This document shows positions 31,648 to 37,881 of a stretch of DNA of 64,000 nucleotides, in pieces. The notes beneath the pieces were generated by a model. It saw only the letters and a program-made list of their open reading frames with translations. It was not told the DNA's origin and ran no database searches. Every line of letters begins with the position of its first letter. Position 1 is the first letter of the stretch. Made by a program: the position numbers and the translations under genes. Source of the DNA: an uncultured Pelagibacteraceae bacterium. Lineage in GTDB: Bacteria; Pseudomonadota; Alphaproteobacteria; Pelagibacterales; Pelagibacteraceae. Location: positions 1 to 64,000 of the forward strand of contig CACDUV010000002.1 in the NCBI GenBank assembly GCA_902556065.1, in the 5' to 3' direction.

Positions 31648-34125
31648 ATGCCTAAAAATAAAATTACAGCTGTTCTTGGTCCAACAAACACAGGTAAAAC
31701 TCATCTTGCAATTGATACAATGCTATCTTTTGACAGTGGAATGATTGGGTTCCCATTAAGATTATTAGCAAGAGAGGTTTACGATAAAGTAATAAAAAAA
31801 ATAAGTATAGACAAAGTTGCTTTAATAACTGGTGAAGAAAAAATAATTCCTACGAATGCAAAATATTATTTATGCACAGTAGAATCAATGCCTATGGAAA
31901 AGCATTTGGATTTTGTGGGCGTAGATGAAATCCAAATGTGTGCAGATCATGAAAGAGGTCACATATTTACAGATAGACTATTAAATTTAAGAGGTGAAAA
32001 ACTTACGATGTTAATGGGTTCTAGCACTATTAAAAATATTATATCTAAATTAAACGAAGATATAGAATTTATTAATAGAGATAGATTATCAAAACTCACC
32101 TACGCTGGACATAAAAAAATATCAAGAATAAATAGAAAAACTGCAATCATAGCTTTTTCAGCGGAGGAAGTTTACGCAATAGCAGAATTAATAAGAAGAC
32201 AAAAGGGTGGGGCAGCTATAGTTATGGGTTCATTAAGTCCCAAAACAAGGAATGCTCAAGTAGAGCTTTATCAATCTGGAGATGTTGACTTTTTAGTGGC
32301 CACTGACGCTATTGGAATGGGAATAAATATGGATCTAGATTATGTATATTTTTCAAACCTTAAAAAATTTGATGGAAAAAAATTAAGAAAATTAAATTTA
32401 TCAGAAATAGGTCAAATAGCAGGAAGGGCTGGAAGATATTTAAACGATGGTGGTTTTGGAATTACTGGTGATTGCAAAGAAATTTCCCCTGAAGAAGTAG
32501 AATTAATTGAAGGACATAAATTTGAGGAGATAAGAACTTTATTCTGGAGAAACTCTGATCTAAATTTTAATAACCCAAATTCACTTATTAGAAGTCTTGA
32601 AGAAAGACCTCAGATGGAGTGGTTAAGAAAAGTTCATGAATGTGAAGATGAAAGAGCGTTAAAGTATTTTTTAAAAAATGAAAAAAATAATCTAGAATTT
32701 AACGAAAGAACACTTAAATCATTATGGGAATGTTGTCAGATACCTGATTTTGTTAAAAAAACCTACGGCAATCATTATGAAGTGATCAGAAATGTTTTTA
32801 AATTTTTAAATAGTGAAAAAGGTCTAATTTCAGACGATTATATGAGAATACAGCTCATGAAACTAGATAAATTAGATGGAAATGTAGATTCTTTATCAAA
32901 TAGAATTGCAAATGTGAGAACTTGGTCTTATGTTTCTAATAAAAATAATTGGGTAGAAAATCAAAATTACTGGATAGAAAAAACAAAACATTTAGAAGAT
33001 AGACTCTCAGACAGACTTCATGAAGAACTTACCAAGACTTTCATTGATAAAAGAGCAAGTATACTTGCAAGAGGTTTAAAACAAGATATGGAATTTAAAA
33101 CTGAAATACTACAGAACAATGATGTTAAAATTGACGAGCAGTTTATTGGTAAGATCAAAGGGTTAAAATTAGAATTAGATTTAAAAAAAGGCTCTCTGGA
33201 AACTGATATCAAATCATTAAAAAAAGCTGCTAGACAATCTATTGGGCCTGAGTTTGATAAAAGAATTCAATCAATTATAGACACAGGATTAATAGATTTG
33301 AAAGAAGACTTTAAAATCTATTGGAATGAATTTCCAATCGCTAAACTATTACCAGGTAATGATTATTTAAGTCCTAATTTTAGTTTAGTTGTTGATGATA
33401 TTATTGAACAAAATCCAAAACGAAAACTAAGTGATTTTATTCAAAAATGGCTAAACTCAAAAATAAGTAATACCTTAAAAAGTTTAATCGATTTAAAAAA
33501 TATTAAAGAGGATAAGTCATCAATTAAAGCTTTAGCTTATCAGCTTTATGAAAATAATGGTGTTTTAAAAAGAGAGCAAGTTTCTGATTATCTAAAAAAT
33601 CTTGAACAAATTGATAGAAAAGTACTTAGAGAATTAGGTGTAAAATTTGGAAGATACCACGTATTCCTTTATCAACTTATAAAACCAGATGCTGTATCTT
33701 TGAGAACTGTATTGTGGAAAAATTTCCATCAAAAATTCTATAATTTAAAACCGCCAACTTTTGGATTAAATTTTCTAGAAGATAAAGATTCTAAAAATAA
33801 AAACTTTATGCTTTTGTGTGGATTTGAAAAATTTGACAATCTTTTTGTAAGAATAGATATTCTTGAAAGACTCTTTGTACAAATAATTAACGCTACTTCA
33901 AAAGAAAATAACGAAATAAAAATGATACCTGAGATGTTAAATCTCTTAGGTTGCAGCAAAGAGAAATTTAAAAAATTATTACAAAAAATGGGTTATAAAA
34001 CTTATGAGAAAGACCAAGATATGTTTTTCAAATACAATCCTGTTAAAAAATTTAAAAAGATACAGAACATAAAAGTTTCAAATGAAAATCCATTTAAAGT
34101 TCTTAAAAATCTAAAGTTGGGTTAA
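31648..34125 (+). CDS. SUV3-like superfamily 2 RNA helicase
   Basis: 825 aa; AVLGPTNTGKTHLAID (Walker A), VDEIQM, IGQIAGRAGRY; matches alphaproteobacterial/mitochondrial SUV3-like helicases. Confidence 0.88.
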   Translation: MPKNKITAVLGPTNTGKTHLAIDTMLSFDSGMIGFPLRLLAREVYDKVIKKISIDKVALITGEEKIIPTNAKYYLCTVESMPMEKHLDFVGVDEIQMCADHERGHIFTDRLLNLRGEKLTMLMGSSTIKNIISKLNEDIEFINRDRLSKLTYAGHKKISRINRKTAIIAFSAEEVYAIAELIRRQKGGAAIVMGSLSPKTRNAQVELYQSGDVDFLVATDAIGMGINMDLDYVYFSNLKKFDGKKLRKLNLSEIGQIAGRAGRYLNDGGFGITGDCKEISPEEVELIEGHKFEEIRTLFWRNSDLNFNNPNSLIRSLEERPQMEWLRKVHECEDERALKYFLKNEKNNLEFNERTLKSLWECCQIPDFVKKTYGNHYEVIRNVFKFLNSEKGLISDDYMRIQLMKLDKLDGNVDSLSNRIANVRTWSYVSNKNNWVENQNYWIEKTKHLEDRLSDRLHEELTKTFIDKRASILARGLKQDMEFKTEILQNNDVKIDEQFIGKIKGLKLELDLKKGSLETDIKSLKKAARQSIGPEFDKRIQSIIDTGLIDLKEDFKIYWNEFPIAKLLPGNDYLSPNFSLVVDDIIEQNPKRKLSDFIQKWLNSKISNTLKSLIDLKNIKEDKSSIKALAYQLYENNGVLKREQVSDYLKNLEQIDRKVLRELGVKFGRYHVFLYQLIKPDAVSLRTVLWKNFHQKFYNLKPPTFGLNFLEDKDSKNKNFMLLCGFEKFDNLFVRIDILERLFVQIINATSKENNEIKMIPEMLNLLGCSKEKFKKLLQKMGYKTYEKDQDMFFKYNPVKKFKKIQNIKVSNENPFKVLKNLKLG

Positions 34126-34129
34126 TTTA

Positions 34130-34546
34130 ATGTTTTTTAAAAATACAGATCAAAAAGAAGAGAATAATTTTATAATAAAAGTTTGTGCTTTATTAATCCA
34201 TGCAGCAAAAATAGATGAAAATTATACAGATAAGGAAGAAGACATAATTAAAAAAACACTTTTAGAGTTGGGACTAGAAAATGAAAAAATCATAAAAACT
34301 ATCCAAAATGCAAAAATTATTGAGGAAAATTCAAACCAGATTTTGGACTTCACCAAGGAAATTAAAAATCTACCTGAAACCGATAAAATTAAAATTGTAG
34401 AAGCTCTTTGGTCAATTATTTACTCTAATGAAGATGCTGATATGTATGAAACAAATCTCATGAGAAGGTTGGCGGGACTTTTATACATTGACAGTAAAAC
34501 TATGGGAGATATTAAGCATAGAATAAAAACGGAAAGTAAAGAGTGA
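34130..34546 (+). CDS. TerB-like tellurite-resistance family domain protein
   Basis: 138 aa helical protein; [33 protein letters not shown], TerB-like pattern. Confidence 0.65.
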
Positions 34547-34869
34547 CTTATATTGTAAACGATAATTGTATTAAGTGTAAACTTACTGATTGTGTAGATG
34601 TTTGTCCGGTTGATTGTTTTTACGAAGGTAAAAATATGCTTGTAATTAAACCGGATGAGTGTATAGATTGTGGCGTTTGTGAACCAGAGTGCCCAGTTGA
34701 TGCTATAAAAGCTGATACTGAACCTGGAAGCGAAAAATGGTTAGAAATTAATAAAAAATATTCAGAAATCTGGCCAAACATAAGTGAGAAAAAAGATCCT
34801 CCTGCGGATCATGAAAAATTTAAAAATGAGAAAAATAAGTACGAAAAGTATTTTAAAGAAAATCTTTAA
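34543..34869 (+). CDS. fdxA: Ferredoxin (FdxA-type 3Fe-4S/4Fe-4S)
   Basis: 108 aa, GTG start; [21 protein letters not shown] ... [16 protein letters not shown]. Confidence 0.94.
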
Positions 34870-34888
34870 AGGTAAATCAGAAAAAGAA

Positions 34889-35734
34889 ATGAAAAAAAAA
34901 GTTAAAAAGAAAAAAGTAACTAAAGTTAAAAAAGTTGCAAAACCAAAAACAAAAAAAGTTAAAAAAGTTTCAGTAAAAAAAAATAAAAAAGTCCTAAAAA
35001 AAATTCCAAATAAATCAGCTAAATTAAAAAAAGTTGAAAAAACTACTCAAAGATCAGATGAAACAAAAGTAGATAATTTAAGAATATCAAAAACTAACGA
35101 GATTAAACCTGAGATAAAAAAGGTTAAAAAACAAGAAACTGAAAAAAGAGAATTTAAAATTAAAGATTACGTTGTTTATCCAAAACACGGTGTTGGTCAA
35201 ATTACAGAATATAAAAAGATAAATATTGGTGGAATTGATGTCGAAACATACGTAATAAAATTTGAAAAGGATAAAGCTAATGGTATGGTACCTGTAAACA
35301 AGCAGTCCCACTTAAGACCTTTAGCGACAATTAATCAAGTGAATAAATGTATCTCTATATTAAAAAGCAAACCAAAGATCAAAAGATCAATGTGGAGCAG
35401 AAGAGCACAAGAATACGAAGCAAAAATTTCATCAGGCAAAATCTACGAATTAGCTGAAGTTGTAAGAGATCTTAACAAAGGAGATGATCTTATGGTTGAT
35501 CAATCTTATAGTGAAAGACAATTATTCGAAAAAGCTTATGAGAGAATGCAGTCAGAATTTCAGATAATTTTAAATTTATCTCCAGATGACACTCAAAAAA
35601 AATTAGACAAAGCATTAAAGAGAAATATTGCTGGACAAGTACAAACAAGTAGTAGTAGCACTCCTAAAACTCCAACTACTGATTTACCTGTCGAAGAACC
35701 TATTTCTGACACTGACGAACCTATAGACGAATAA
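34889..35734 (+). CDS. CarD/CdnL family transcriptional regulator with a long Lys-rich N-terminal extension
   Basis: ATG at 34889 gives MKKKVKKKKVTKVKKVAKPKTKKVKKVSVKK..., then the CarD domain FKIKDYVVYPKHGVGQITEYKKINIGGIDVETYVIKF. The track start at 34784 overlaps fdxA and is unlikely. Confidence 0.9.
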   Translation: MKKKVKKKKVTKVKKVAKPKTKKVKKVSVKKNKKVLKKIPNKSAKLKKVEKTTQRSDETKVDNLRISKTNEIKPEIKKVKKQETEKREFKIKDYVVYPKHGVGQITEYKKINIGGIDVETYVIKFEKDKANGMVPVNKQSHLRPLATINQVNKCISILKSKPKIKRSMWSRRAQEYEAKISSGKIYELAEVVRDLNKGDDLMVDQSYSERQLFEKAYERMQSEFQIILNLSPDDTQKKLDKALKRNIAGQVQTSSSSTPKTPTTDLPVEEPISDTDEPIDE

Positions 35735-35794: not shown

Positions 35795-35893
35795 TTATTT
35801 TCTTCTTCTTTTTTTAGCTTTCTTAGCTTTCTTTGCTTTTTTCTTAGCTTTTTTCTTAGTTTTCTTTGCCGCTTTTTTTCTTTTCTTAGGCAT
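35795..35893 (-). CDS. 32-aa Lys/Arg/Ala-rich basic mini-protein, histone-H1-tail-like
   Basis: ATG...TAA translates MPKKRKKAAKKTKKKAKKKAKKAKKAKKRRRK; strong Shine-Dalgarno AGGGAG upstream (aaaaaGGGAGctaaagATG). Below the length cutoff of the supplied ORF track. Confidence 0.8.
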   Translation of the reverse strand: MPKKRKKAAKKTKKKAKKKAKKAKKAKKRRRK

Positions 35894-35916
35894 CTTTAGC
35901 TCCCTTTTTAGTTTAA

Positions 35917-35933
35917 CGAATCAAATTGATTCG
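35917..35933. promoter_or_regulatory. Perfect palindrome CGAATCAA-A-TTGATTCG upstream of the Lys-rich mini-gene
   Basis: 8-bp perfect arms with a 1-nt centre, 24 bp upstream of the start codon; contains two GANTC sites. Confidence 0.6.
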
Positions 35934-36092
35934 CTATTAACTTATTTTTATTTTTTTATACAACTTATGTCAAATCATTAATTAAAAGGGAATTTTTTAA
36001 AAAATTATTTTTTATTTTTATTTTTTTATAAAAAATTTTTTATTAATTTAGTTAATGTTTATGCGGTAAATAAACTATTAATTTAAAGTTAT

Positions 36093-37790
36093 TTAATAAA
36101 GATTTTCTATTTCACTTTTATACTTTTGAATAATTTTATATCTTTTTAACTTTAAAGTTGGTGTCATTAATCCATTTTCAATTGTAAATTGATCTTTAGT
36201 TACAAAATATTTTTTTATTTTTTCTATCTTAGATAAATTTTTATTTATTATTTCTATTTCTTTTAAAATATTTTCATCAGAAAAATTACTTGAATCTTTA
36301 TTTAAAACTAAAATAGCTACTAAGTAAGGTTTATTATCTCCATAAACTAATGCTTGCTCAACAAATTCAATTTTAAGCAAATCATTTTCAACTTTTACAG
36401 GAGAAATATTATCACCACCTGGTGTAATTAAGATATCTTTCTTTCTATCAGTAATTTTCAAATAACCATTTTCAAAATGCCCTATATCTCCAGTATATAA
36501 CCAGCCGTCCTTTAAAACTTTTTCGGTTTCTTCTTTTTTATTCCAATAACCTATCATGACATTTTCACCTTTAACCAGAATTTCACCATCATCAGCAATT
36601 TTTACTTCATTGCCACTAAACGCAGGACCTACTGTATCAATCCTTATATCTTTTATTGGATTGCAACTAACAACTGGAGAAGTTTCAGTCAAACCATACC
36701 CTTGCAAAGTTGGTAGCCCTATCGAATTTAAAAAAACACCTACTTCTTTATCCAATGCACCCCCTCCAGAAATAAATGCTTTTAACGAACCTCCAAATTG
36801 AGCCTTTATTTTCTTTCTAACTATTTTTTCACAAATCGTATTTTGCACTTTTTCGAAAAAAGTAAGTTTTTGTTTAGATAGTACTTTTTCTCCAAGATAA
36901 AGCATTTTGTTTATTAAAGATTTTTTAAAACCAGTGGCTTTATTAAAAGTTGAATTAATTTTTTGATAAAGATTCTGGTAAAATCTTGGAACTGCTGTCA
37001 TGATATCAGGGCTACATTCTCCCATATTTTTTATTAACTTGTCTATACTTTCTGCATAATAAACTTCGGCACCTATTGCTATCTGAACAAACTGAACAGT
37101 ATGTTCATAAGAATGAGATAATGGTAACCAAGTTAGGAATTTTGGTTTGTAGGATATTATTTCTTTTAAAAGTGAAATAGATCCTTCACAATTATTTAGA
37201 ATTCCTCCGTGGCTCAGCATTACTCCCTTAGGGTTACCTTGAGTTCCTGATGTATAAATAATACAAGCTATATCTTTCCTTGAAATTTTTAGTTTTAAAA
37301 AATCAATCTCCTCATAATTAGTCTTCAAAAAAATATCTTTTATATATCTAGTATCTGATTGACTGTCTATTTGATCAAAAGAAATAATTTTTTTTATAAA
37401 TGATTTTGTTGAAATTATATTTTTAATTTTATTATATTGAACTTGATCTGAAACAATTATTACTGAAGGATTACAATCATCAATTAAATATTCATAATCT
37501 CTCTCAGTGTAAGTAGTATATGCAGGAACTGTAATTCCACCTGCTAACATTATTGCTAAATCAGATATCATCCATTCAGGTCTATTTTCTGAAATTAATA
37601 AACATCTATCTTGTTTTTGAATTAAAGATTTTAATTCATCACTTACTTTTAAAATATTCAAATAAGTATCTTTCCATGAAAACTTTTCATTTGGATATTT
37701 TAAAGATTTAAGAAAAATCTGATCTGTTTTCTCTTTTTTATACTGATTATAAAATAGTTCTAAAAGATTATTTTGGTTTTTTATATTCAT
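36093..37790 (-). CDS. AMP-dependent long-chain acyl-CoA synthetase
   Basis: IIYTSGTQGNPKGVMLSHGGIL, LQGYGLTETSPVVS, DGWLYTGDIG. The start is moved to MNIKNQ because the listed N-terminus lies in tRNA-Leu. Confidence 0.9.
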   Translation of the reverse strand: MNIKNQNNLLELFYNQYKKEKTDQIFLKSLKYPNEKFSWKDTYLNILKVSDELKSLIQKQDRCLLISENRPEWMISDLAIMLAGGITVPAYTTYTERDYEYLIDDCNPSVIIVSDQVQYNKIKNIISTKSFIKKIISFDQIDSQSDTRYIKDIFLKTNYEEIDFLKLKISRKDIACIIYTSGTQGNPKGVMLSHGGILNNCEGSISLLKEIISYKPKFLTWLPLSHSYEHTVQFVQIAIGAEVYYAESIDKLIKNMGECSPDIMTAVPRFYQNLYQKINSTFNKATGFKKSLINKMLYLGEKVLSKQKLTFFEKVQNTICEKIVRKKIKAQFGGSLKAFISGGGALDKEVGVFLNSIGLPTLQGYGLTETSPVVSCNPIKDIRIDTVGPAFSGNEVKIADDGEILVKGENVMIGYWNKKEETEKVLKDGWLYTGDIGHFENGYLKITDRKKDILITPGGDNISPVKVENDLLKIEFVEQALVYGDNKPYLVAILVLNKDSSNFSDENILKEIEIINKNLSKIEKIKKYFVTKDQFTIENGLMTPTLKLKRYKIIQKYKSEIENLY

Positions 37791-37796
37791 AAACTT

Positions 37797-37881
37797 TGGT
37801 GGGCGAAGAGAGAATCGAACTCTCACTTCTTGCGAAACACGATTTTGAGTCGTGCGCGTCTACCAGTTCCGCCATTCGCCC
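37797..37881 (-). tRNA. tRNA-Leu (anticodon CAA), CCA encoded
   Basis: Minus strand GGGCGAATGGCGGAACTGGTAGACGCGCACGACTCAAAATCGTG...GAGAGTTCGATTCTCTCTTCGCCCACCA; long variable arm; anticodon loop CTCAAAA. Confidence 0.95.

Follow-up and report, generated by a model that had tools for sequence, protein, structure and literature searches.

The window, the whole stretch of 64,000 nucleotides from an uncultured Pelagibacteraceae bacterium that was analysed here, contains a real gene for a mini-protein, mini-H1, that is conserved throughout the order Pelagibacterales and has a composition like that of histone H1 tails. The most fitting description is that of a novel, free-standing and very short form of bacterial H1-like polycation, one that cannot be placed in any curated family. 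The protein probably acts as a stand-alone H1-tail-like or protamine-like peptide that binds the chromosome and compacts the nucleoid alongside HU. SAR11 bacteria (Pelagibacterales) have very small cells and streamlined genomes, and are among the most abundant bacteria of the ocean. Present in all 11 sampled genera and unmodelled in Pfam, NCBIfam and PHROGs, mini-H1 is a candidate core component of SAR11. It lies under common length cut-offs, and existing gene sets and trypsin-based proteomics would miss it.

Of the 32 residues of the window protein, 23 are Lys or Arg, giving a net charge of +23. The K+R fraction is 0.72, against 0.38 for the runner-up among 590 window ORFs of at least 20 aa; the highest value across 20 random first-order Markov windows is 0.45, and none of the 20 reaches 0.7. 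The first-pass annotation of this DNA had described a 32-aa Lys/Arg/Ala mini-protein on the minus strand and likened its composition to histone H1; the translation agrees exactly, and the K/R/A make-up does resemble that of an H1 tail. The only periodicity in this short form is AKK/AKKK. The features of the locus are collected in Table 1.

Table 1. Features of the mini-H1 locus in window coordinates.
Feature	Position	Strand	Description
carD, convergent neighbour	34889..35734	+	CarD_TRCF_RID and CarD_C domains; start codon assigned by inspection
Terminator stem-loop	35736..35776		separates the mini-H1 stop from the convergent carD stop
mini-H1 ORF	35795..35893	-	32 codons plus stop: MPKKRKKAAKKTKKKAKKKAKKAKKAKKRRRK; based on translation and orthologues
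Shine-Dalgarno AGGGAG	35900..35905	-	six bases 5' of ATG
Leader stem-loop UAGCGAAUCA-AUU-UGAUUCGUUA	35914..35936	-	10 pairs, -10.1 kcal/mol, z = -3.3
CGAATCA element	35927..35933	-	invariant; predicted mRNA 5' end
-10-like TAAAAA	35945..35950	-	17 nt past the -35; weak consensus, putative
-35 element TTGACA	35968..35973	-	perfect; TTGAC(A/T) kept across the order

Because searches with low-complexity peptides are unreliable, the neighbouring CarD protein served as the anchor for locating mini-H1 loci. The gene is found in 79 of the 80 named Pelagibacteraceae carD loci, the remaining one ending at a contig edge; in these 79 it starts with GGGAGCTAAAG-ATG and lies, convergent, 61-67 bp past the end of carD. 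Thirty genomes, drawn from all 11 sampled genera (g1-g11, g1 being the window's own genus and g8-g11 the second family) and from both Pelagibacterales families, have been found to carry a K/R/A-rich ORF that is convergent to carD and preceded by a strong RBS (30/30), and mini-H1 is present in every relative with a readable carD 3' region. Length differences across loci are multiples of three, which keeps the frame. A broken frame or a missing RBS beside carD in relatives had been named beforehand as evidence that would speak against the gene, and both frame and RBS are intact in all of them. A peptide profile search across the order gave matches in 46 of 297 genomes, all in g1 and each with a single copy, and is a poor census, its sensitivity failing on low complexity, since several unmatched genomes do carry the gene by synteny. 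Outside the order, no mini-H1-like gene occurs beside carD in 42 readable loci of other alphaproteobacterial families (27 of 28 and 15 of 20, those in which carD could be located; only the region beside carD is covered). A class-wide alphaproteobacterial search with the long form, run without a positive control, gave zero matches, and in viral contigs no mini-H1 candidate was borne out by tblastn.

The protein measures 21-38 aa in most genera, while the full range is 21-91 aa (composition and length were counted over 139 loci, with some genomes entered twice). K+R lies between 0.53 and 0.86, and short forms have little or no proline. The g4 proteins, of 50-58 aa, contain AAKKKAPAKKRKP repeats. 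Those of the second family have 76-91 aa (MEELKVIFAKARKKAKKKAAPKKK...) and are built from AAPKKK, KPAKKK and KRKPAKKK repeats like those of the histone H1 C-terminal tail, and only MEELKVIFAKA stands ahead of the tail-like part. Across the order the net charge spans +17 to +50: most genera fall within +17 to +27, a single genus has +31 to +35, and the second family reaches about +44 to +50.

Mini-H1 is apparently a transcription unit of its own. Within the genus, AGGGAGCTAAAG-ATG is near-invariant among the mini-H1 starts compared, and the AGGGAG reported upstream of the ATG by the first-pass annotation was located. Of the promoter proposed there (TTGACA-17-TAAAAT-like), the TTGACA and the 17-nt spacing hold, but the second hexamer reads TAAAAA and the -10 is ill-defined: a promoter scanner favours an 18-nt spacer with AAAAAT as the -10, and across genera the -35 is kept whereas the -10 is poorly defined. 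The bidirectional terminator that had been proposed as common to mini-H1 and carD was recovered as a stem-loop with an A-tract on one flank and a T-tract on the other, and can therefore be used by both genes. A related hairpin is seen in the 14 loci displayed. The second family has an additional terminator-like palindrome 3' of the mini-H1 stop, ahead of the terminator shared with carD (GCATTGATTAATCAATGC followed by a T-tract in locus L134, and a similar one in L135).

Upstream of mini-H1, TTGAC(A/T) is followed by CGAATCA at 39-42 nt from its first base in all 11 genomes that were pattern-searched, and both elements are also visible in the remaining lineages examined. Given the usual promoter spacing, (A)CGAATCA would mark the 5' end of the mRNA. 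Folding predicts a leader hairpin for each of the 11 genera, with a 3' arm that varies. Changes in the stem are one-sided only, with no double-sided compensatory ones, so the RNA hairpin is argued for by fold energy and recurrence. A DNA operator was considered in its place: the g1 palindrome is perfect, yet the other genera retain just its 5' half-site, a pattern that points to RNA without being decisive. The leaders of g2, g4 and the second family include a CUCC/CCUC stretch able to pair with the Shine-Dalgarno sequence, which suggests that translation may be controlled by such pairing in these groups.

The leader element is shared with another gene. HU-type genes of g2-g4 and g8-g11 have ACGA(A/T)TC(A/G) shortly 5' of the start codon (HU loci compared: L172, L173, L179, L180, L212-L215, L218 and L220-L227), and in pattern-matched cases its spacing from a TTGA-type -35 is that seen in mini-H1. 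The HU leaders of g1, g5 and g6 contain no ACGA(A/T)TC(A/G). The pattern TTGAN{29,36}WACGAATC has 13 matches in five genomes: five lie within large ORFs and one in tRNA-Arg(ACG), and all seven that fall in leaders precede mini-H1 (4) or HU (3); as the reversed control also has 13 matches, only their placement is specific. Since the pattern was designed from mini-H1 and HU leaders, the search is a uniqueness test and not an unbiased discovery. UUACGAAUC is also contained within the anticodon arm of tRNA-Arg(ACG) (L245:1465-1541), and this likeness to the leader element may be due to chance. The leader element common to both genes suggests that mini-H1 and HU are probably under joint control through their mRNA 5' ends, a regulatory link that can be tested. 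HU- and IHF-type genes are present in 11 of 11 genomes checked, so the peptide is not the sole candidate nucleoid protein.

Synonymous sites of mini-H1 vary very little. Across 70 loci with distinct carD sequences, the synonymous difference in codons 2-16 is 3.1% for mini-H1 versus 32.8% for carD, and in Lys codons 1.2% versus 22.7%; this block test includes only loci sharing the MPKKRKKAAKKTKKKA start, and its figures hold for the genus and do not amount to a formal dN/dS. Compared with fdxA, terB, suv3 and the acyl-CoA synthetase gene at the same loci, mini-H1 shows 5-7% and its neighbours 21-35%. An identical 93-nt coding sequence occurs in 58 loci, which hold 44 distinct carD core sequences with about 30% of same-residue codons differing. 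Such low variation would be expected under high expression, under constraint at the RNA level or under a combination of the two.

A free basic peptide that condenses DNA together with HU is the most economical explanation, given the H1-tail composition, the order-wide conservation, the strong expression signals and the element shared with HU. In the proposed mechanism, the gene's own strong promoter and RBS would serve a short, monocistronic transcript that stops at the terminator it has in common with carD, and expression would be constitutive. The peptide, presumably disordered, would bind chromosomal DNA, and perhaps RNA, through charge and with no sequence preference; by neutralising phosphate it would compact the nucleoid together with HU. 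The mini-H1 mRNA is predicted to open with the conserved (A)CGAAUC and the hairpin, and the HU mRNAs of several genera with the element but no hairpin; the two may be co-regulated via these 5' ends. More tentatively, SAR11 could use a free H1-tail peptide as a constitutive nucleoid polycation, co-expressed with HU via a common 5' RNA element, the two genes forming a new regulon; we regard this fuller picture as possible rather than probable. A nucleoid- or RNA-compacting peptide had been suggested on first inspection, and the long orthologues with H1-tail repeats and the HU-shared 5' element speak for the nucleoid role, the binding itself being predicted. The K/A(P)-repeat proteins with which it can be compared do bind DNA, as described for peptides of the AlgP tail (PMC9239181) and for Hc2 (PMC2848022), and by analogy mini-H1 probably works like the Lys-rich tails of Hc2 (PMC2848022) and AlgP (PMC9239181). 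If the peptide packs DNA, it would be the bacterial equivalent of a histone H1 tail at the size of a protamine, and its natural variants of 21-91 aa would provide a test of how many charges and repeats are needed for compaction.

Binding to RNA, ribosomes or polyphosphate would likewise be expected of a poly-Lys/Arg peptide. The main rival to a role in the nucleoid, which we consider unlikely, is that mini-H1 is a basic mini-protein associated with ribosomes or RNA (bTHX/bL36-like) that stabilises rRNA and binds its own leader to regulate its synthesis. The tiny size and strong basicity of mini-H1 would be in keeping with this, as would its invariant leader element with a hairpin, the CUCC/Shine-Dalgarno pairing in several leaders (as in translationally autoregulated genes) and the scarcity of synonymous changes (as seen where expression is high); moreover, Hc2 is reported to repress translation and to have a higher affinity for RNA than Hc1 has (PMC2848022). 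However, mini-H1 has no fixed motif past K/R/A and varies in length from 21 to 91 aa, unlike a ribosomal protein held in a defined pocket. Neither its short nor its long forms match any Pfam or NCBIfam model, small ribosomal proteins included, the only PDB match (long form) is at chance level (E = 0.52), and the 5' element occurs on HU mRNA and not on ribosomal-protein genes. That the locus is chiefly a small RNA, with a 5' hairpin, a frozen sequence and a terminator, and an ORF that is secondary or part of a dual function, appears improbable. Synonymous sites are near-frozen within the genus, as the 58 identical coding sequences illustrate, the leader is structured and the terminator strong; yet nucleotides and length diverge across genera while the K/R/A frame, the ATG and the RBS are always retained, indels preserve the frame, and Rfam returns sub-threshold matches only, the best one falling under its gathering score. 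Even less credible is a polycation bound to polyphosphate or storage granules in the manner of AlgP and PhaF. AlgP, with its KPAA-repeat tail, is found with polyphosphate granules (PMC9239181), but PPK1, the polyphosphate kinase searched for, was found in just 2 of 12 Pelagibacterales genomes, which makes a polyphosphate role unlikely, whereas mini-H1 occurs in every lineage examined. A functionless chance or degenerate A-rich ORF, whose Lys runs could be encoded by A/G-rich DNA in an AT-rich genome, is refuted, since neither the other window ORFs nor the random windows yield anything similar to its K+R of 0.72 and RBS, promoter and ORF are kept in all 11 genera.

Mini-H1 may be compared with the eukaryotic sperm protamines and sperm-type H1-like tails, which are very short, overwhelmingly basic, disordered and DNA-condensing. 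It differs from them in being Lys-rich rather than Arg-rich, bacterial and probably constitutive, and homology is not claimed. Among bacterial proteins, Hc2 (HctB, Chlamydia) and BpH1 (Bordetella) consist of short K/R/A(P/T/V) repeats whose number sets the length, and the AAPKKK-repeat forms of the second family look closest to them; the K/R/A-rich tandem repeats with length polymorphism that characterise these proteins are found in the second family and in g4. Hc2 has 165-237 aa and is a late product of the developmental cycle (PMC2848022), whereas mini-H1 has only 21-91 aa, lies next to carD, has a leader element in common with HU and gives no sequence-family match. As low-complexity families score poorly, the missing match to the Hc2/BpH1 family models lowers the case for membership but not the resemblance. 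The C-terminal tails of AlgP and PhaF (Pseudomonas) share with mini-H1 a Lys/Ala/Pro composition like that of H1 tails. However, these tails are joined to an N-terminal helical domain, while mini-H1 is a free peptide whose whole ORF is tail-like; the combination of such a domain with a KPAA-repeat tail is absent from it. The HU/IHF family (PF00216) shapes the nucleoid, a task that mini-H1 likely shares, and HU mRNAs have the ACGAAUC 5' element in common with mini-H1 in several genera; a Pfam search finds no PF00216 domain in mini-H1, which has neither the fold nor the sequence of HU, and the genuine HU/IHF genes are located at other genomic sites. PHROGs contains no model that matches it. The open SAR11/Pelagibacter literature searched on histone-like, nucleoid and small proteins holds no description of mini-H1; the main text of a structured-RNA survey of P. 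ubique names neither carD nor histone (PMC2704228), and a proteome paper (PMC5069961) leaves histone, CarD and nucleoid all unmentioned. Mini-H1 is thus unlisted as regards the family libraries and open papers searched.

The first-pass annotation had also tentatively linked the peptide to CarD, whose N-terminus it described as similarly Lys-rich. A Lys-rich tail is indeed present at the N-terminus of the window CarD, but the link is weaker than proposed: the genes are convergent with the terminator alone in common, and no functional connection was found. Their association is one of conserved synteny and a common terminator, not an operon. The Lys-rich N-terminal tail of alphaproteobacterial CarD has KKxAKK-type sequence, like mini-H1; unlike that tail, mini-H1 is a gene of its own on the opposite strand, and nothing indicates descent of either from the other. 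Long H1-like AKKPAAKK N-terminal tails are seen on CarD in several other alphaproteobacterial families (L144, L145, L148, L154, L155 and L160). On the plus strand of the window, positions 31648-35734 hold a cluster of genes for a Suv3-like helicase, a TerB-domain protein, a ferredoxin (DUF3470) and CarD. In the 36093-37881 region, the GTG start at 37826 of the listed 577-aa acyl-CoA synthetase ORF falls inside a tRNA gene (37800-37881, minus strand), and translation probably begins at a more downstream codon.
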